The translations under genes were made by a program, and so were the position numbers. 64,000 nucleotides of DNA, from contig NZ_JAUSWJ010000001.1 of the NCBI RefSeq assembly GCF_030815145.1, positions 3,896,501 through 3,960,500 on the forward strand, read 5' to 3'. Below are positions 31,992-39,098 of the stretch, piece by piece. This stretch comes from Kaistia geumhonensis. Its GTDB lineage: Bacteria > Pseudomonadota > Alphaproteobacteria > Rhizobiales > Kaistiaceae. Positions within the stretch are counted from its first letter, which is position 1; the number at the start of each line of letters is the position of its first letter. Below the pieces are notes generated by a model, which was given only the letters and a program-made list of their open reading frames with translations, had not been told where the DNA came from and did no database searches.

Positions 31992-32948
31992 ATGTCGCGC
32001 CCGATCTATGGCGATCCCGTGCATGACGGCGCCGCCGATCCGACCGTGATCCACCGCGCCGGCACCGACGAATGGTGGATGTTCTACACCAACCGCCGCG
32101 CCGATCTCGGTGGCGAGGGGTTCGGCTGGATCCACGGCAGCGCCATCGGCACCGCCGTCTCGCGCGACGGCGGCCTCACCTGGACCTATCGCGGCACGGT
32201 CGCAGGCCTCGACGCGCCCGAGCATCCCGGTCTCAACACCCATTGGGCCCCGGAAGTGATCCGCGCCAAGGGCGCCTATCACATGTTCCTCACCTATATG
32301 CCGGGCGCCTCCGACAGCGCGGCCGACGCGGACAGGCGCCTCGTGCACTTCACCAGTCCCGACCTCGAGACCTGGGCGCGGGTAGGCGAACTGCCGCGCA
32401 CCTCGCGCAATGTCATCGACGCCGCCGTCGCCCGCTGTCCGGACGGCCTCTATCGCCTCTGGTACAAGGACGAGGGCAAGGGCTCGGCGACCTATGCGCT
32501 GACGAGCCCGGATCTTCGCGACTGGCGCCTCGAAGGCGAGGTCATTGCCGGCGCGCCCGACGCGCCGCCGCACGAGGGACCGAACGTCTTCTCCCTCGGC
32601 GGCTGGTGGTGGATGATCACCGACGAGTGGCGCGGCCTCGCCGTATACCGGTCCGACGACGCACGGGGCTGGGAGCGGCAGGGCCTCATCCTGGGCGAAC
32701 CGGGCATCCATCCGGACGACCGCCGCTTCGCCCGCCATGCCGACGTGGTGCCGCAGGGCGATCACGCGGCGCTCTACTATTTCACCCACCCCGACTGGGC
32801 GGAGACGGAGACGCCCGTTCCGGTCGATTTCCGCGAGCGGCGCACGGTGATCCATCTCGCACGGATCGCGGTCGAGAACGGACGGCTGGTCGCGAGCCGC
32901 GATGTCGAGCCCTGGCCCCTCGATCCGGCGCTTGCCAATGGTGGGTGA
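31992..32948 (+). CDS. beta-propeller glycosidase-like protein (GH43/GH32 fold)
   Basis: A 318-residue protein without a signal peptide. Repeated blades of the five-bladed beta-propeller type are visible: DPTVIHRAGTDEWWMFYT, HWAPEVIRAKGAYHMFLTY, IDAAVARCPDGLYRLWYKDE, EGPNVFSLGGWWWMITDEW and HADVVPQGDHAALYYF. The acidic residues in the first, third and fourth blades (D of DPT, D of IDAAV, E of EGPNVF) are placed as in GH43-like enzymes. The substrate is unknown. Unlike most GH43 enzymes it seems cytoplasmic. It ends about 85 bases before tRNA-Met. Confidence 0.7.
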   Translation: MSRPIYGDPVHDGAADPTVIHRAGTDEWWMFYTNRRADLGGEGFGWIHGSAIGTAVSRDGGLTWTYRGTVAGLDAPEHPGLNTHWAPEVIRAKGAYHMFLTYMPGASDSAADADRRLVHFTSPDLETWARVGELPRTSRNVIDAAVARCPDGLYRLWYKDEGKGSATYALTSPDLRDWRLEGEVIAGAPDAPPHEGPNVFSLGGWWWMITDEWRGLAVYRSDDARGWERQGLILGEPGIHPDDRRFARHADVVPQGDHAALYYFTHPDWAETETPVPVDFRERRTVIHLARIAVENGRLVASRDVEPWPLDPALANGG

Positions 32949-33031: not shown

Positions 33032-33108
33032 GGCGGGGTAGCTCAGCTGGTTAGAGCAGCGGAATCATAATCCGCGTGTCGGGGGTTCAAGTCCCTCTCC
33101 CGCTACCA
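33032..33108 (+). tRNA. tRNA-Met (CAT), elongator
   Basis: A 77-base cloverleaf with CCA encoded. Acceptor GGCGGGG pairs with TCCCGCT (two G-U), D-stem GCTC/GAGC, anticodon stem GCGGA/TCCGC with loop ATCATAA (anticodon CAT), T-loop TTCAAGT. The first pair is G-U rather than the C-A mismatch of the initiator, so it is not fMet. A tRNA-Ile2 read by lysidine modification also has CAT, but the body matches elongator Met. Confidence 0.9.
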
Positions 33109-33174
33109 CCACTTCCCCCCTTTTTCTGATGATGGCTCTTCACAAGATTCGCCAACGTTCCGGCGATCGTGAGG

Positions 33175-33384
33175 TCAAGCTCCCCCCGTCCATTCGTCGC
33201 GGCCGACGCCGCGGCGGATGATCATGTTCGTTGGGGCATGCTTCGTCCTCGGTGAACGCCCTTCGATGGCTAGGTTCGCGCCGCGCTGGATCAGCCGCTT
33301 GATCACGGCAAGCGCGCTCTCAAGATCGGCCGGCGGCGGGTCTCGTCGATAGCGTTCGACCTCTATATATTCCCCAGTAGACAT
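33175..33384 (-). CDS. short hypothetical protein, atypical region
   Basis: A possible 69-residue protein starting MSTGEYIEVERYRR and ending RRGVGRDEWTGGA, with one likely helix (DLESALAVIKRLIQRGANL). Codon choice is less GC-biased at the third position than that of neighbours in its first third. No ribosome site is convincing (ACAAG next to the ATG). The sequence upstream (33385-33470) is A+T-rich. I do not recognise it; it could be a remnant. Confidence 0.35.
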   Translation of the reverse strand: MSTGEYIEVERYRRDPPPADLESALAVIKRLIQRGANLAIEGRSPRTKHAPTNMIIRRGVGRDEWTGGA

Positions 33385-33454
33385 CTTGTCGTTGTAAAAA
33401 AACGAAGCAGAACCCACATAATAATTGAGTAGTGATCTCAAACATTCGCAAGCG

Positions 33455-33721
33455 CTAGCCGATCCATTTTTCGGGTCTCGCTCTTTGCATCTGCTCTGCC
33501 GACCGGCGCTGGGCGCTCGGCTCATCCGACACCCTCGTCGACAAGGCAGATTGGAGATAGTGAAATTGCTTGGCGTAATGCCTTCGCCGCTGCGGGCTCG
33601 GTAGCCGAGCGACCTTGGCGTAGCTCGTGGCAGCCGGGGAAGCGTCGATGATGGCCACGGCCAGTTCGACGCGGGACCGGGTTTCTCCGAGCGCTGACAG
33701 CCGCGTTCCGTCCGCCGACAT
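33455..33721 (-). CDS. short hypothetical protein, atypical region
   Basis: A possible 88-residue protein, MSADGTRLSALGETRSRVEL then AVAIIDASPAATSYAKVARL and ending QMQRARPEKWIG. The third codon positions are mostly G or C through the first half, which favours real coding. The first 35 residues could form a helix and a beta-alpha unit, the rest is basic. No family recognised. A GTG 39 bases upstream is an alternative start; there is no clear ribosome site. Same strand as the gene at 33175-33384 and 70 bases before it. Confidence 0.4.
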   Translation of the reverse strand: MSADGTRLSALGETRSRVELAVAIIDASPAATSYAKVARLPSPQRRRHYAKQFHYLQSALSTRVSDEPSAQRRSAEQMQRARPEKWIG

Positions 33722-33772
33722 CCTTCGCCGACCCGTCCAGGGGGAGCCATCAGACACCAGGAGCGACAGGTC

Positions 33773-34729
33773 ATGACACTCGAGCATGCAGCCAGCGAGG
33801 CCGTTCGGAAGCCCTGGGGCAGCCATGATCTTCGTCCGTGGAGCCAGCTTCACGACAAGGACGGCCCGATCGGCGAGATATGGTTTCAGCGCGCCGATCG
33901 CCGATCGCCGGAGCCGGCGCTCCTCCTGAAGCTCCTGTTCACCACCGAGCGGCTGTCCATCCAGGTTCATCCGGGCGACGCGCAGGCACAGGCCAAGGGC
34001 CTTCCCAATGGCAAGACCGAAGCCTGGTACATTCTCGATGCACGCGCCGGGGGCGAGGTGGCGCTCGGGCTCAAGCGGCCGCTGACCACCGAGGCGCTGC
34101 GCGCCTCGATCGATGACGGGTCGATCGCCGACATCATCGCCTGGCGTCATGTCGAGCGCGGCGCCGCCGTTTCCGTTCCGGCGGGCACGATCCATGCGAT
34201 CGGTGCCGGACTCGTGATCGCCGAAATCCAGCAACGAAGCGACGCGACCTACCGCATCTTCGACTATGGGCGGCGACGCCCCCTGCATGTCGAGGACGCT
34301 GTCGCGGCCGCGGATGCGAGGCCCTTTCCGCGTTCGGTAGGGCCCCGCGCGCTGACCGATGTGCGCAGCCTCCTCGTCGAGACCCCTTACTTCGTCTTCG
34401 AGCGGTTCGATCTGCCGCCGAAGTCCAAATGGCGGATCGAGACGGACCGCGAGACCTGGGTGCTCGTGCTGCGGGGCCGGGCGAAGATCGGACCTATGGC
34501 CGCCTCCGTGGGCGAAGCCTTCTTCCTCGACGACGACAATGTCGCGCTGGACGTCGGGCCGGAGAAGTTCACGGCGCTCGTCGCCTATGCCGGTTCGGAG
34601 ATCCAGGCCGGCCTTCTCGTCGATCTCAGCCAGCGTGCCGGCCATCCGGCTGCCTCCGAGCCACGGCCCGTCGCCCCGCTCCCGTCATTCGCAAACGCGC
34701 CGTCCATCCCGAGCAAGGCTACATCGTGA
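33773..34729 (+). CDS. mannose-6-phosphate isomerase class I family protein
   Basis: A 318-residue cupin-fold protein of the ManA type. The zinc ligands are in place: IQVHPGD (about residue 66), GKTEAWYIL and PAGTIHAIGAGLVIAEIQQ. The N-terminus has KPWGSHDLRPW, the usual start region. Expected reaction: mannose-6-phosphate to fructose-6-phosphate, though relatives act on other hexose phosphates. It overlaps the next gene (GTGA, 34726-34729) and leads a three-gene operon with a glycosyltransferase fusion and GH130. Confidence 0.82.
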   Translation: MTLEHAASEAVRKPWGSHDLRPWSQLHDKDGPIGEIWFQRADRRSPEPALLLKLLFTTERLSIQVHPGDAQAQAKGLPNGKTEAWYILDARAGGEVALGLKRPLTTEALRASIDDGSIADIIAWRHVERGAAVSVPAGTIHAIGAGLVIAEIQQRSDATYRIFDYGRRRPLHVEDAVAAADARPFPRSVGPRALTDVRSLLVETPYFVFERFDLPPKSKWRIETDRETWVLVLRGRAKIGPMAASVGEAFFLDDDNVALDVGPEKFTALVAYAGSEIQAGLLVDLSQRAGHPAASEPRPVAPLPSFANAPSIPSKATS

Positions 34730-37014
34730 CCCAGATCAAGCGCCTGGCCTTCATCGGCAATTCGCTGCCGCGCCGCTGCGGCATCGCCACCTTCACGACG
34801 GACCTGCAGCAGGCCATCGCGCGATCCGCTCCCGATGTCGAGACCACGATCGTGGCGATGACCGATCATGGCCATTCCTATGATTACCCGTCCACCGTCG
34901 GCCTCGAAATCAACGACGGGATGCTGGACGAATATGAGCGCGCGGCCGGCTTTCTGAATGCGAAGCGCTTCGACGCCGTCTCGCTGCAACACGAATTCGG
35001 GATCTTCGGCGGACCGGGCGGCAGTCATATCCTCGCGCTGCTGTCGCGGCTGACCATGCCTGTCGTGACGACGCTTCACACCGTTCTCGAGCGACCGACC
35101 GCGGTCCAGCGCGAGGTGCTGATGCGCATCGTGGAGGCATCGGCGAAAGTCGTCGTCATGGCCGAGAAGGGGCGTGATCTGCTGCGCAGCGTCTATCGCG
35201 TGCCGGCCGGCAAGATCGAAGTCATTCCGCATGGCATTCCGGACTTCGCCTTCGTCGAGCCCGATCGCGCCAAGGCCGAGTTCGGCTTCAGCGGGCGCTC
35301 GGTGATCCTCACCTTCGGGCTCCTGTCGCCCAACAAGGGGATCGAAGTCATGATCGACGCCATGCCGGCGATCATCGCGAAGCGGCCGGACGCGGTCTAT
35401 GTCGTTCTTGGCGCGACACATCCCAATCTCGTCAGGGATCATGGCGAGGCCTATCGGGAAAGCCTCGTGCGGCGCGTCGGCCAACTCGGCATCGAGGACC
35501 ATGTCGTCTTCCTCGACCAGTTCGTGGACCAGCCGACCCTGCTCGGCTTCATCTCGATGTGCGACGTCTATGCGACGCCCTATCTGAATGAATCACAGAT
35601 GACCTCGGGGACCCTGGCCTACAGCTTCGGCCTCGGGCGAGCGGTGGTTTCCACGCCATACTGGCACGCGCGTGAGCTGCTCGCCGATGGACGAGGCCTG
35701 CTGGTGCCTTTCGGGGATGCCGCCGCAATCGGCGCCGCGATCACCGACCTGCTGACGAACGACGAAAAGCGGCAGGCGATGCGAGCGCGCGCCTATGCGG
35801 TCAGCCGCTCGATGACATGGGAGCGAACGGCCGAGCGCTATCTGGCGGTTCTGGAAAGCGCGCGCCACGGACAGAAGCTGAGGATGCTGCCGCGTGCCGA
35901 TCCGGATCGCATGCCGAGCGACCAATCCATTCTGCCTGACATGCAGATCGGACACTTCCTCTCCATGTGCGACGATACCGGGCTTTTGCAGCATGCCGTC
36001 CATTCCGTTCCGGACCGGCTGCATGGCTACTGCGTGGACGACAATGCGCGTGCGCTCCTCGTCGCCTGCGCCCTGAACGCGCCGGGCGAGCAACGGCTCT
36101 CGGAGGTGCTGACCTCGCGCTTCGCCGCCTTCGTGCAGCATGCCTGGAACCCCGACAGCGGCCGGTTTCGCAATTTCATGAGCTTCGACAGGCGCTGGCT
36201 GGAAGATCGGGGCTCGGAGGACAGTCATGGCCGAACGCTCTGGGCGCTCGGCGAGGTTGCGCGCAGCGACGCGACCTCTGCGCGCCGGCAGTGGGCAGCC
36301 GCGCTTTTCGCTGTGGCGCTGCCCGTGGTGGAGCGCTTCAGGTCACCCCGCGCCTTCGCCTTCACGCTGCTGGGGCTCGACGCCTACATGGCCTCCGGAG
36401 TCGATGATCCCGAGGCCGAGCGCCTGCGCTCGGTCCTCGCCGAACGGCTTGCGGCCTCGCTCTCGGCTGCCGAGACCGACGACTGGACCTGGTTCGAGGA
36501 GGGCCTCGCCTATGACAATGCCCGCCTCTCCCAGGCCCTGATCCAGACCGGACTTGCGACACGCACGCTGTCGCATGTCGAGGCGGGCCTGCGCTCGCTG
36601 CGCTGGCTCATGGCGCAGCAGACCGCGCCGACGGGGCATTTCAGGCCTGTCGGCTCGGAGAGCTTCGGCGACGGCGGCCGCAAACGACCGCGTCCTTTCG
36701 ACCAGCAGCCGCTGGAGGCCACTGCCTCGATTTCCGCCTGCCTCGCCGCCTGGCGGGCCGACGGCAACGCGGCGTGGCGCACGAGCGCCCTCAAGGCGTT
36801 CAGCTGGTTCTTCGGCGCCAATGATCTCGGAGAGTCCCTGGTCGATCCCGAAACCGGCAGCTGTCGCGACGGCCTTCACGCCGACCGGCCCAACGAGAAC
36901 CGCGGCGGCGAATCCGTCGTCTCCTATCTCCTCAGTCTTGCAGAAATCAGACAGCTGCGCCGCGTGAGTGGCGAGCGCATGAAACTGGCTTTGCCGCGCG
37001 CCCTGCGCGCCTGA
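34726..37014 (+). CDS. GT4 glycosyltransferase fused to an alpha/alpha-toroid domain
   Basis: About 762 residues. The N-terminal half (1-380) is a GT-B glycosyltransferase of family 4: RRCGIATFTTDL, SLQHEFGIFGGPGGSH, VIPHGIPDF, the nucleotide-sugar-binding region FGLLSPNKGIEVMIDAM and PYLNESQMTSGTLAYSFGLGRAVVSTPYWHARELL. The second half (about 420-755) has repeated helix pairs with DRLHGYCVDDNARALL, GRFRNFMSFDRRW, EDSHGRTLWALG, FEEGLAYDNARLSQALI and PRPFDQQPLEATA, which looks like an (alpha/alpha)6 toroid. The GTG start at 34726 is coupled to the ManA-like gene. Substrate unknown; the GH130 gene next door suggests mannose chemistry. Confidence 0.8.
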   Translation: MTQIKRLAFIGNSLPRRCGIATFTTDLQQAIARSAPDVETTIVAMTDHGHSYDYPSTVGLEINDGMLDEYERAAGFLNAKRFDAVSLQHEFGIFGGPGGSHILALLSRLTMPVVTTLHTVLERPTAVQREVLMRIVEASAKVVVMAEKGRDLLRSVYRVPAGKIEVIPHGIPDFAFVEPDRAKAEFGFSGRSVILTFGLLSPNKGIEVMIDAMPAIIAKRPDAVYVVLGATHPNLVRDHGEAYRESLVRRVGQLGIEDHVVFLDQFVDQPTLLGFISMCDVYATPYLNESQMTSGTLAYSFGLGRAVVSTPYWHARELLADGRGLLVPFGDAAAIGAAITDLLTNDEKRQAMRARAYAVSRSMTWERTAERYLAVLESARHGQKLRMLPRADPDRMPSDQSILPDMQIGHFLSMCDDTGLLQHAVHSVPDRLHGYCVDDNARALLVACALNAPGEQRLSEVLTSRFAAFVQHAWNPDSGRFRNFMSFDRRWLEDRGSEDSHGRTLWALGEVARSDATSARRQWAAALFAVALPVVERFRSPRAFAFTLLGLDAYMASGVDDPEAERLRSVLAERLAASLSAAETDDWTWFEEGLAYDNARLSQALIQTGLATRTLSHVEAGLRSLRWLMAQQTAPTGHFRPVGSESFGDGGRKRPRPFDQQPLEATASISACLAAWRADGNAAWRTSALKAFSWFFGANDLGESLVDPETGSCRDGLHADRPNENRGGESVVSYLLSLAEIRQLRRVSGERMKLALPRALRA

Positions 37015-37054
37015 GCTTCGGCACGTCCCCTCCAGCGAGAGCGCGAGTCCCACC

Positions 37055-38353
37055 TTGCCACAATCCGCATTCCTGACCCGCCAGGCGCCCCTTCTGCGTC
37101 CGGACCCGGGCAGGGTCATCGTCCGTTCGTTCCGCCTCACGGCCGAGCCGCTCGCTCTGAAGCCGGGGGAGAAGACACGCGCCAACCACATTGTCGACCG
37201 CGTCATGGCGCTCGATCCTGAAGCGGCGGCCGCGCAGCTCGCCGAAGTGCTCGAGAATTTCGACGGGCGGCACCGCAACCTGCTCGCGCGTTTCGAAGCA
37301 CGCGCCGACGAGATGGAGCCGGCCTTCGCCGCGCATCCCAGCTTCACGTTGCTGCAACGCCGGCTGGTCGGCGCCTATTTCATGCATGAATATTCGTTCG
37401 AGGCCGCAGCGCTCTTCAACCCGAGCATTGTTCCCCATCCCGATCAAAGCGGCGTCGCCGCCGGTTCCTGCCGGTTCATCGTCAGTCTCCGCGCCGTCGG
37501 TGAAGGTCATGTATCGTCGCTGACATTCCGCTCCGGCATCGTCTCCGCCGACGGCACGATCACCGTCGATCGGACGGAACGGCTTGCGACGCTTCCCCGC
37601 CTCGTGCGCCTCGTCGGAGGCATGGATGGCGACGAGGTGGAAATCGCGTTCTCGGGCGACGAGGACCTCAGCGAGCGGGTGATCTTCCCGGTGACGCCGG
37701 CTCAGGCCAACGGCATCGAGGATGCGCGCTTCGTGGCCTTCGACGAAGGTGGCGGCAGCACGATCTACTACGCGACCTACACGGCCTATAGCGGCAGCAC
37801 GATCCGGTCCGAACTGATCGAGACGCGCGACTTCCGGGTGTTCAATCTCTCGCCGCTCGCCGGTACCGCGGCGCGCAACAAGGGCATGGGCCTCTTCCCG
37901 CGCAAGATCGACGGCCGCTACGCGATGATCGCCCGACAGGACAACGAGAACCTCTATCTCATCTATTCGGACGACCTGCGCATCTGGAACGGAGGCGAGG
38001 CGATCCTGAGGCCGGTCTTTCCGTGGGAGTTCGTGCAGATCGGCAACTGCGGCGCGCCAATCGAGCTCGACGAAGGCTGGCTGCTGCTGATGCACGGCGT
38101 CGGACCGGTCCGTCGCTATTCGATCGGCGCCGCGCTGCTCGACAAGAACGATCCGTCGAAGGTCCTCGGGCGGTCGCATCGACCTCTGCTCCGACCCGAG
38201 CCGGCCGAGCGGGAGGGCTATGTGCCGAACGTCGTCTACACCTGCGGCGCCATGCGCCACGGCGATCAGATCATTCTCCCCTACGCCGTTTCCGACACCT
38301 TCACGAACTTCGCGACCATCCGCATCGATGACTTGCTGAAGAGCCTGGACTGA
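37055..38353 (+). CDS. GH130 family mannoside phosphorylase/hydrolase
   Basis: A 432-residue beta-propeller enzyme of GH130. Visible cues are FNPSIVPHPDQ, ANGIEDARFVAF (the Asp after Glu corresponds to the family proton donor), RNKGMGLFPRKIDGRYAMIARQD and LIYSDDLRIWNGG, then VYTCGAMRHGDQIILPYAVSD. GH130 includes phosphorylases and hydrolases of beta-1,4- and beta-1,2-mannosides; which one is not decided here. The N-terminal 100 residues before the propeller are longer than in minimal members. Likely start is a TTG at 37055, no better start is available. 40 bases after the glycosyltransferase. Confidence 0.85.
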   Translation: MPQSAFLTRQAPLLRPDPGRVIVRSFRLTAEPLALKPGEKTRANHIVDRVMALDPEAAAAQLAEVLENFDGRHRNLLARFEARADEMEPAFAAHPSFTLLQRRLVGAYFMHEYSFEAAALFNPSIVPHPDQSGVAAGSCRFIVSLRAVGEGHVSSLTFRSGIVSADGTITVDRTERLATLPRLVRLVGGMDGDEVEIAFSGDEDLSERVIFPVTPAQANGIEDARFVAFDEGGGSTIYYATYTAYSGSTIRSELIETRDFRVFNLSPLAGTAARNKGMGLFPRKIDGRYAMIARQDNENLYLIYSDDLRIWNGGEAILRPVFPWEFVQIGNCGAPIELDEGWLLLMHGVGPVRRYSIGAALLDKNDPSKVLGRSHRPLLRPEPAEREGYVPNVVYTCGAMRHGDQIILPYAVSDTFTNFATIRIDDLLKSLD

Positions 38354-38381
38354 GTAACTGCCTCCGTGCCAGCAGCAGGGG

Positions 38382-39098
38382 TCAACGGTCCTCCTTGGGC
38401 CCCCGCGCCACGATCGTGAGCGCTCCATCGGGCAGCGGCTTCTGCAGCGCGATCGCGTCGGCGGCGGTCGGCGCGGTCAGCCAGGCGTCGACCTCCTCGG
38501 GCGTGCGCAGGATGACCGGCATCGCCTTGGGGTGAACGGCGCCGACCTCGGCATTGGGCTCGGTGGTGAGGAAGCCGTAGAGGTCGATCGTCTCCGGGCC
38601 GGTCCTCACCTTGCGCACGCCGGTCCATTGCGGAACCCAGATTCCGGCGAAGAAGGCGAGGGGGCGGCTGTCGCAGAGCGCGAACCAGATGTCGCCGCCG
38701 GCCTCCTTGTTGAACTCGCTGAACGAGGTGAAGGGCACGACGCAGCGGTTGGGGATGTCCAGCCAGCGCGTCCAGTGCCTGCTCGCCGTGTTGCGGATAT
38801 TGGTCGTGCCGCTGTCGGGTTCGGCCTTCAGAAGTGCCTGGAAGTCGACCTCCTTGCCCTTGGCGCGCAACTTGTCGGCGCGCTTGCTCGTCGCCGCGAA
38901 CAGCGCCTGCGACGACGAGGGCATGCCCCAGCGGGCCATGGCGAGTTCGCGGCCCTCCGGCGCGTTGCGCACGATCGGCGCCGCATAGTCCGGGAAGATG
39001 CCCGGCATCGGCGCCAGATTGCCGGTCAGGTCGGCATAGAACCGGGCGAAGGCGCGGATCGCCTCCTGGTTCGAGGTCATGGAGTAGAGATTGCACAT
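38382..39098 (-). CDS. yedK: SOS response-associated peptidase YedK/HMCES family
   Basis: A 238-residue SRAP protein that forms a covalent thiazolidine link with abasic sites in single-stranded DNA. The catalytic Cys2 is exposed by the start MCNLYSMTSN; the Glu of the FSEF segment (family FYEW) and the His in AVHPKAMPVIL are conserved. ATG 39098 is therefore the correct start although the frame stays open upstream. A LexA-type box lies at 39172-39186, so SOS induction is likely. Convergent with the GH130 gene. Confidence 0.92.
   Translation of the reverse strand: MCNLYSMTSNQEAIRAFARFYADLTGNLAPMPGIFPDYAAPIVRNAPEGRELAMARWGMPSSSQALFAATSKRADKLRAKGKEVDFQALLKAEPDSGTTNIRNTASRHWTRWLDIPNRCVVPFTSFSEFNKEAGGDIWFALCDSRPLAFFAGIWVPQWTGVRKVRTGPETIDLYGFLTTEPNAEVGAVHPKAMPVILRTPEEVDAWLTAPTAADAIALQKPLPDGALTIVARGPKEDR

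Follow-up and report, generated by a model that had tools for sequence, protein, structure and literature searches.

A widespread GT4-toroid and GH130 gene pair in Kaistia geumhonensis and other bacteria: a candidate mobile module for a cytoplasmic mannoside

We describe here an operon of Kaistia geumhonensis, contained in a 64,000-nucleotide stretch of contig NZ_JAUSWJ010000001.1 (positions 3,896,501 to 3,960,500; hereafter the window), and the loci related to it in other bacteria. Three genes on the forward strand, between positions 33773 and 38353, encode a protein similar to the mannose-6-phosphate isomerase ManA, a fusion of a GT4 glycosyltransferase with an alpha/alpha-toroid domain, and a member of the GH130 family. 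The conserved core is smaller than this three-gene set and consists of the GT4-toroid and GH130 pair, the ManA-like gene being an optional accessory outside it. We give an even chance to the proposal that the pair is a horizontally mobile module, here joined by a ManA-like helper, which makes and recycles a cytoplasmic mannoside; the links of this mannoside are probably of the beta-1,2 type. The general idea of a mannoside cycle is more secure than the roles assigned to the GT4 and toroid halves of the fusion protein.

Results

A genome-neighbourhood survey, proposed in an earlier reading of the window made from its letters only (the sequence-only reading), covered 80 named loci, the best 80 of at least 574 confirmed matches; 76 of them have a GH130 gene in the vicinity of the GT4-toroid gene, and in 74 it follows directly downstream. 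Open reading frames (ORFs) at these loci were called mechanically, with starts often placed too early: adjacency was counted in 72 of 79 loci by such ORFs, and in 74 of 80 once L052 and L054 were read directly. In L079 and L093 the GH130 gene lies about 3 kb from the GT4-toroid gene, and no GH130 was found at four named loci (L047, L057, L080 and L081), two of which (L057 and L080) are at the end of their contigs. In 35 of the 80 loci the GT4-toroid gene is preceded by a ManA-like gene, a figure to be read as a lower bound, as contigs such as L048, L050 and L066 open with the GT4 gene or very shortly before it. The sequence-only reading had placed the mannose-6-phosphate enzyme in its set of three on a par with the other two, a view which these figures do not sustain.

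Judged by the names of the records, the loci belong to about seven phyla (Pseudomonadota, Verrucomicrobia, Acidobacteria, Ignavibacteria, Bacteroidota as Spirosoma, Spirochaetales and Anaerolineae), to which plasmid matches add Fusobacteriota and Deinococcota. One locus labelled Mycobacterium sp. KBS0706 (L034), with a copy about 70% identical to the alphaproteobacterial pair, was not counted, since its label may be wrong. The toroid was found in 15 of 299 Pseudomonadota genomes. The GH130 profile matched in 29 of the 299, near full length in 13, and all these 13 are toroid-positive; the two toroid-bearing genomes with no near-full-length GH130 are G168 (90% complete, no match) and G176 (88% complete, a short GH130). 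Within a sphingomonad-type family, toroid matches occur in 57 of 149 genomes. At all listed places except one (G433, 403 amino acids) the ORF holding the matched toroid is at least 600 amino acids long, and the G413 match spans part of the domain; a stop codon falls within the toroid frame in G176, G457 and G369, pointing to gene decay in some genomes or to assembly error. No account of the GT4-toroid and GH130 pair was found in a literature search outside which fell preprints and most subscription journals.

In the window, the coordinates of the three tightly spaced same-strand genes proved to be as first read: the ManA-like gene (33773-34729, 318 amino acids) overlaps by 4 bp the GT4-toroid gene (34726-37014, 762 amino acids, GTG start), which is followed by the GH130 gene (37055-38353, 432 amino acids, TTG start). 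The arrangement is not due to chance, as the same genes, in the same order, are kept together in all nine other genomes of the genus found to carry the toroid. No export signal was recognized on reading the N-termini of the three proteins, a signal-peptide predictor not being used.

The GH130 protein is assigned by Pfam well above the curated cut-off (PF04041, residues 207-431, 1.1e-33, 117 versus 26 bits), which bears out its first identification, and is the sole PF04041 match in the genome; its N-terminal part, about 200 residues long, is divergent. The closest solved chains are 9fj8, 7fip and 5b0p, and the best profile matches, 7fip and 9fj8, bear the names of beta-1,2 phosphorylases (1,2-beta-oligomannan or beta-1,2-mannobiose phosphorylase). 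Residues D223, K276, R294 and H347 are invariant in 98 of 98 GH130 sequences, and D223 is what we take to be the catalytic aspartate of the ED(P/A)R motif of the family. Its likely equivalent is Asp142 of BT3780 (PMC4599007). In the part of that source available, GH130 hydrolases are described as having acidic residues in place of basic ones, and one lysine as marking beta-1,2 specificity. At the putative phosphate-binding positions, mapped to E227 and E268 of BT3780 by spacing, the Glu/Glu pattern of hydrolases is not found: R294 and H347 are present in 98/98 sequences, while the third position is Gln in 92/98 and Lys in 6/98. Since basic residues appear to be kept where hydrolases have acidic ones, the protein seems, by its residue pattern, phosphorylase-like more than hydrolase-like, with one residue at odds. 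K276 aligns with the NK of 7fip and 9fj8, while TM1225 has an arginine at this position, and may correspond to Lys199 of BT3780, the beta-1,2 specificity lysine. Second, short GH130s found at two other loci have R (L088, 12792-13727) and K (L092, 11780-12670) at the specificity position, which suggests different linkages. Membership of GT108 was also considered and discarded, no solved GT108 chain being matched in either a sequence search (E<=1) or a profile search (E<=0.001).

The 762-residue fusion was likewise recognized correctly from the start, both halves being confirmed. The GT4 half (residues 1-379, 34726..35862 on the forward strand) exceeds the curated Pfam cut-off for Glyco_trans_1_4 (1e-17, 65.2 versus 27 bits), the GT4 assignment covering roughly residues 1 to 375, and its neighbours in Foldseek searches, GlgM, MshA, PimB' and PimA, the last also being its best sequence match, place it in the GT-B fold. 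The reference for its donor site was an alignment with MshA, featuring a GRLQPFKG motif and an E-x7-E pair; the arginine of this motif (GR-x4-KG) and the E-x7-E pair presumably line the nucleotide-sugar donor site in MshA-type GT4s. Neither feature is intact in the fusion: the arginine is replaced by Leu199 in 107 of 107 sequences, and the second glutamate by Tyr299 in 105 of 107. Invariance in all 107 extends to Lys204, His118, Gln291 and numerous further positions, a pattern suggestive of a functional site under selection.

Separate second GT4s beside the pair, examined at six loci (L083, L085, L086, L088, L112 and L113), all keep GR..KG, the E-x7-E pair being detected by pattern search in L112 and L113 and not in the other four, while two GT4 relatives with no toroid (L115, 5983-7272; L116, 6968-8257) retain the unusual donor-site signature. 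The altered donor site is thus, at the level of sequence, a mark of the fusion GT4 subclass. In L115 a Tn3 transposase gene directly follows the toroid-less relative. The sets of 107 GT4-toroid and 98 GH130 sequences contain near-duplicates (L003 and L015 are probably one Kaistia soli contig) and leave out sequences shorter than 700 and 400 amino acids, respectively, along with the loci of the window itself and certain others which repeat matches; the distance correlation over 94 loci (r = 0.94) is inflated by shared ancestry.

The toroid half (residues 395-762, 35908..37014 on the forward strand) is modelled by AlphaFold2 as an all-helical barrel with a mean predicted local distance difference test score (pLDDT) of 92.9, and is matched by alpha/alpha-toroid structures. 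For the full fusion protein the pLDDT is 87.6 and the predicted template modelling score (pTM) 0.55, so that the relative placement of the two halves is unsure. The sequence-only reading had named likeness to a characterised hydrolase of another sugar as grounds for dropping its idea; instead, the best Foldseek match is 7tem (E 4.2e-14, template modelling score 0.78), also matched at the profile level (1.3e-13, with the DD and N-x-N-x-GAES stretches kept), followed by epimerases of the AGE superfamily (from E 8.6e-9) and, afterwards, by some GH9 and GH76 folds. The 7tem structure is that of YPO2471, an exported protein of about 427 residues and of unknown function, which is separate, while the toroid described here is half of a fusion; its likeness does not, therefore, settle the activity of the toroid.

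No significant Pfam family was found for the window's toroid, and no named family could be assigned from 65 members either, which gave weak matches to GH127 (two members, 0.0031) and GH76 (one, 0.046). An AGE epimerase function was also rejected: the likeness is one of fold alone, PF07221 matching weakly 2 of the 65 members (best E 0.063), and, although AGE epimerases, as we assume, use two catalytic histidines, the sole histidine at least 97% conserved in the toroid is H423. Thirteen residues (D416, D439, N440, R442, N483, W589, E591, Y596, N598, Q661, C713, D715 and N725) are invariant in 107/107 sequences and E729 in 106/106, a conserved set which looks like an active site.

The ManA-like protein falls under the cut-offs of both Pfam PMI_typeI (17.2 versus 22 bits) and NCBIfam TIGR00218 (41.7 versus 116.2 bits), yet it matches the solved ManA 1qwr at 1.2e-18, and its VHP, GKTE, GT-HA and E-QQ-SDATYR stretches, which we take to form the metal and active-site motif of type I mannose-6-phosphate isomerases, align with those of 1qwr; the enzyme type first proposed thus appears correct. 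The genome encodes elsewhere a separate full ManC (GMP/PMI, that is, mannose-1-phosphate guanylyltransferase/phosphomannose isomerase). A search of the genome with PF20511 found no second type I isomerase, and settles nothing on this point, because the ManA-like gene itself is missed by the same search.

Genes surrounding the pair were analysed in 40 sphingomonad-type neighbourhoods taken from 59 listed places (two from one genome, one spanning 11.9 kb), compared with 20 control stretches, each from a different one of the genomes sampled and at a distance of about 400 kb, and in 15 loci out of 28 matching plasmid records. GH130 was found in 40/40 neighbourhoods versus 0/20 controls, ManA in 9/40 versus 0/20, ManC in 4/40 versus 0/20 and HAD-IIB proteins in 3/40 versus 0/20, whereas phosphomannomutase was found in none of either set (0/40 and 0/20). 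Of the plasmid loci, 14/15 have a GH130, recognized from the annotation in 13 and by Pfam in one; adjacency is lacking at times, for example in L116 and L125. ManC is present in 7/15, ManA in 5/15, phosphomannomutase in 2/15 and chaperone genes in 7/15; in certain sphingomonad plasmids the operon itself takes in ManC and, in two cases, phosphomannomutase. The recurrence of ManA, ManC and phosphomannomutase genes ties the pair to mannose-1-phosphate and GDP-mannose: this link recurs but is incomplete, and that to chaperones is limited to related plasmids.

Other partners are found in specific groups. In seven Rhizobiaceae-type loci, where no ManA was seen, the pair is followed by a separate protein of the GlcNAc-2-epimerase family (AGE-type, confirmed by PF07221 for three of the seven), and in four Acidobacteria loci by an additional GT4 together with a further GH130, a short one (Pfam on L088). 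Further recurrent neighbours of the sphingomonad-type loci, 10 of 25 listed clusters being scanned, are mostly ordinary genes. In five sphingomonad plasmid islands (L118, L119, L120, L121 and L123) the operon is accompanied throughout by grpE, dnaK, a dnaJ-type gene, usp and a HAD-IIB gene. The product of the last of these in L118 shows a likeness to eukaryotic phosphomannomutase (Pfam PMM, 1.4e-8).

The position of the operon differs among relatives. A tRNA-Met gene (33032..33108, forward strand, predicted by ARAGORN), overlooked in the sequence-only reading, precedes the operon start. In G013, the closest of nine relatives searched (95% identity in a GH43-like protein, 90% in SRAP), the toroid was not found, and the two genomes are homologous at the DNA level up to 33108, where this tRNA gene ends, and again from 38389. 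The operon-bearing islet thus delimited (33109..38388) measures 5,280 bp, compared with 209 bp in G013, with no detected similarity between the two, and has a GC content of 65.5%, versus 68.1 +/- 1.2% for stretches equal to it in length. Six of eight other genomes of the genus share one operon site and two have the operon at other sites; no tRNA was found in the 15-kb stretches analysed from these eight. Loss in G013 is an alternative explanation, but we favour movement, because at least four sites are occupied within one genus and copies are found on plasmids.

Between tRNA-Met and the ManA-like gene, the stretch 33109-33772 has a GC content of 60.4% and a reverse-strand ORF (33175-33774) with no Pfam match, and may preserve part of the element that inserted. 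No mobilizing gene was recognized in the islet beside the three operon genes and this ORF, and no direct repeat of at least 14 bases pairing the islet edges was seen among 20 of 32 repeat families listed. The tRNA-Met genes at 33032 and 40101 were considered as possible island ends; they differ (50 of 77 bases alike) and, being different genes, are not a duplicated attachment site. The gene adjoining tRNA-Met upstream (31992-32948) encodes a GH43/GH32-like enzyme (GH43, 36.2 bits), found in three of nine genomes of the genus searched.

Discussion

From the gene set and its conservation, the folds, the residue patterns and the presence or absence at the tRNA site, all of which are observed, we infer a set of reactions, with their linkage, direction and role. 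Fructose-6-phosphate would be converted by ManA to mannose-6-phosphate, this by phosphomannomutase to mannose-1-phosphate, and the latter by the ManC encoded elsewhere in the genome to GDP-mannose. The GT4 half would transfer a mannosyl unit, starting or building a glycoside; GH130 would add or remove beta-1,2-linked mannose by reversible phosphorolysis, giving back mannose-1-phosphate; the toroid may trim, rearrange or release the chain. The product might be a storage compound or a protective solute.

Several observations weigh against this scheme. A retaining GT4 would form alpha links, while GH130 cleaves beta-mannosides: the former being retaining and the latter inverting, a single bond cannot simply be formed by one and broken by the other. 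Either GT4 would form an alpha-linked start unit, extended by GH130, or it would use another donor. GDP-mannose is in any case a doubtful donor, because the donor-site arginine is replaced in all the fusion sequences. ManA is equally compatible with catabolism and synthesis, one of the putative phosphate-binding Lys/Arg residues is Gln in most GH130s, and ManA, ManC and phosphomannomutase genes are missing from many loci.

The alternative with most in its favour, though rather unlikely, is a salvage route, in which imported beta-mannosides are degraded to mannose-1-phosphate and fructose-6-phosphate, as proposed for Thermoanaerobacter. GH130 phosphorylases and ManA do serve catabolism, and in the proposal made for Thermoanaerobacter, as given in the available part of the report (PMC4264767), an ABC transporter would bring in the mannosides, which two GH130 enzymes would phosphorolyse before ManC acts. 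Among the loci collected here, a gene for a solute-binding protein lies upstream in L092, and members of an ABC-ATPase family (one of them assigned by Pfam) are found at varying positions in 7 of 80. However, across 79 loci no transporter family was seen to recur within the operon chains, of whose 48 additional genes 26 were scanned, with one MFS protein among the families shown for them; the one recurrent ABC protein identified, in 11 of 40 sphingomonad-type neighbourhoods, is a two-domain ATPase with no permease; and the invariant partner is a glycosyltransferase, with ManC entering the operon on plasmids.

It is also conceivable, if distinctly unlikely, that the module makes a mobile bacterial "mannogen" by a new chemistry. 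The GT4 half, its signature for nucleotide sugars being lost, would then be a new catalytic type, using a donor such as alpha-mannose-1-phosphate from GH130 or building on a sugar phosphate; alpha- and beta-mannosides would be interconverted through mannose-1-phosphate, and the toroid would represent a new glycoside hydrolase or transglycosylase family.

We consider it similarly improbable that the product is a stress protectant, a small mannosyl glycoside accumulated in heat, drought or salt, with the module as cargo of transmissible stress islands. The operon lies beside chaperone genes in 7 of 15 plasmid loci, with groEL or groES/groEL just upstream in two and grpE, dnaK and dnaJ or J-domain genes in five, where usp (5/5), dps (4/5) and hsp20 (3/5) are also found; moreover, an FtsH-type protease occurs in 4/40 sphingomonad-type neighbourhoods versus 0/20 controls. 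These plasmids represent two related arrangements, however, and hence not seven independent events, and the association is not borne out as a general explanation in the 40 neighbourhoods, where relatives of DnaK, GrpE, DnaJ, GroEL and GroES are absent (0/40, controls 0/20) and hsp20 is found once (1/40 versus 0/20). An EcfG promoter for the operon was similarly discarded, as the strict motif scanned, which we take to represent EcfG-type general-stress promoters, lies upstream in 1 of 79 loci and was not found in the window.

A role in cell-surface or protein glycosylation, the pair modifying a lipid, a protein or an exopolysaccharide precursor, appears quite improbable: GT4 enzymes often act on lipids and proteins, and PimA and PimB' are among the closest structures, but no flippase, polymerase or polysaccharide exporter was seen among the recurrent neighbours identified, several small ORFs being left with no identity, and a phosphorylase partner suits a soluble glycan. 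It is very improbable that toroid and GH130 alone act, with the GT4 half serving as a scaffold or sensor and having no catalysis of its own, for, in spite of the two donor-site replacements, many of its other residues are strictly kept, and relaxation is not general, as the separate second GT4s retain the usual motif.

For the preferred reading, a cytoplasmic mannoside which the pair would make from GDP-mannose or mannose-1-phosphate and return to the latter, the nearest described system found is the Thermoanaerobacter cluster Teth514_1785-1796, a partial precedent which, in the available part of its report, shares GH130 beta-1,2-mannoside phosphorylases, a GT4 and a mannose-1-phosphate guanylyltransferase (PMC4264767). 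That cluster has an ABC transporter, a GH5, two GH130s and a GT4 for which no toroid fusion is mentioned in the same part; the Kaistia operon, in contrast, has no transporter, a GT4 fused to a toroid and a GH130 with a long, divergent N-terminal part. We know of no GT4-toroid counterpart in the turnover of Leishmania mannogen. Mannogen is a reserve of beta-1,2-mannan which GH130-like GT108 enzymes, dual transferase/phosphorylases, both synthesise and phosphorolyse, as described in the available parts of PMC8950772 and PMC3290622, whereas the Kaistia protein is a GH130 proper, with no Leishmania MTP chain among its 23 sequence or 18 profile matches. A comparable logic, with a domain for synthesis, a toroid and a phosphorylase which trims, is found in a membrane protein that belongs to different families and uses glucose instead of mannose, so that the likeness is one of analogy alone (compare PMC10834661).

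The statement of the sequence-only reading that no described pathway has exactly this set holds in so far as no account was found, and is tempered by the Thermoanaerobacter combination of GT4, two GH130s and ManC, as far as its report was available. Its dedicated cytoplasmic mannose-glycan cycle gains from the recurring ManA, ManC and phosphomannomutase genes and from the lack of a recurring transporter or export gene among the part of the operon neighbours identified, while its storage role does not. On the whole the idea is strengthened, its core being reduced to a pair of genes and mobility being added to it.

Going by record names, the module occurs in about seven phyla; it is also found on plasmids and, in the window, in an islet linked to a tRNA gene. 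This distribution points to a widespread and seemingly undescribed intracellular mannose metabolite. The module also brings to light a GT4 subclass whose donor site has been remodelled, as well as a toroid domain outside any family, both of which are directly testable.

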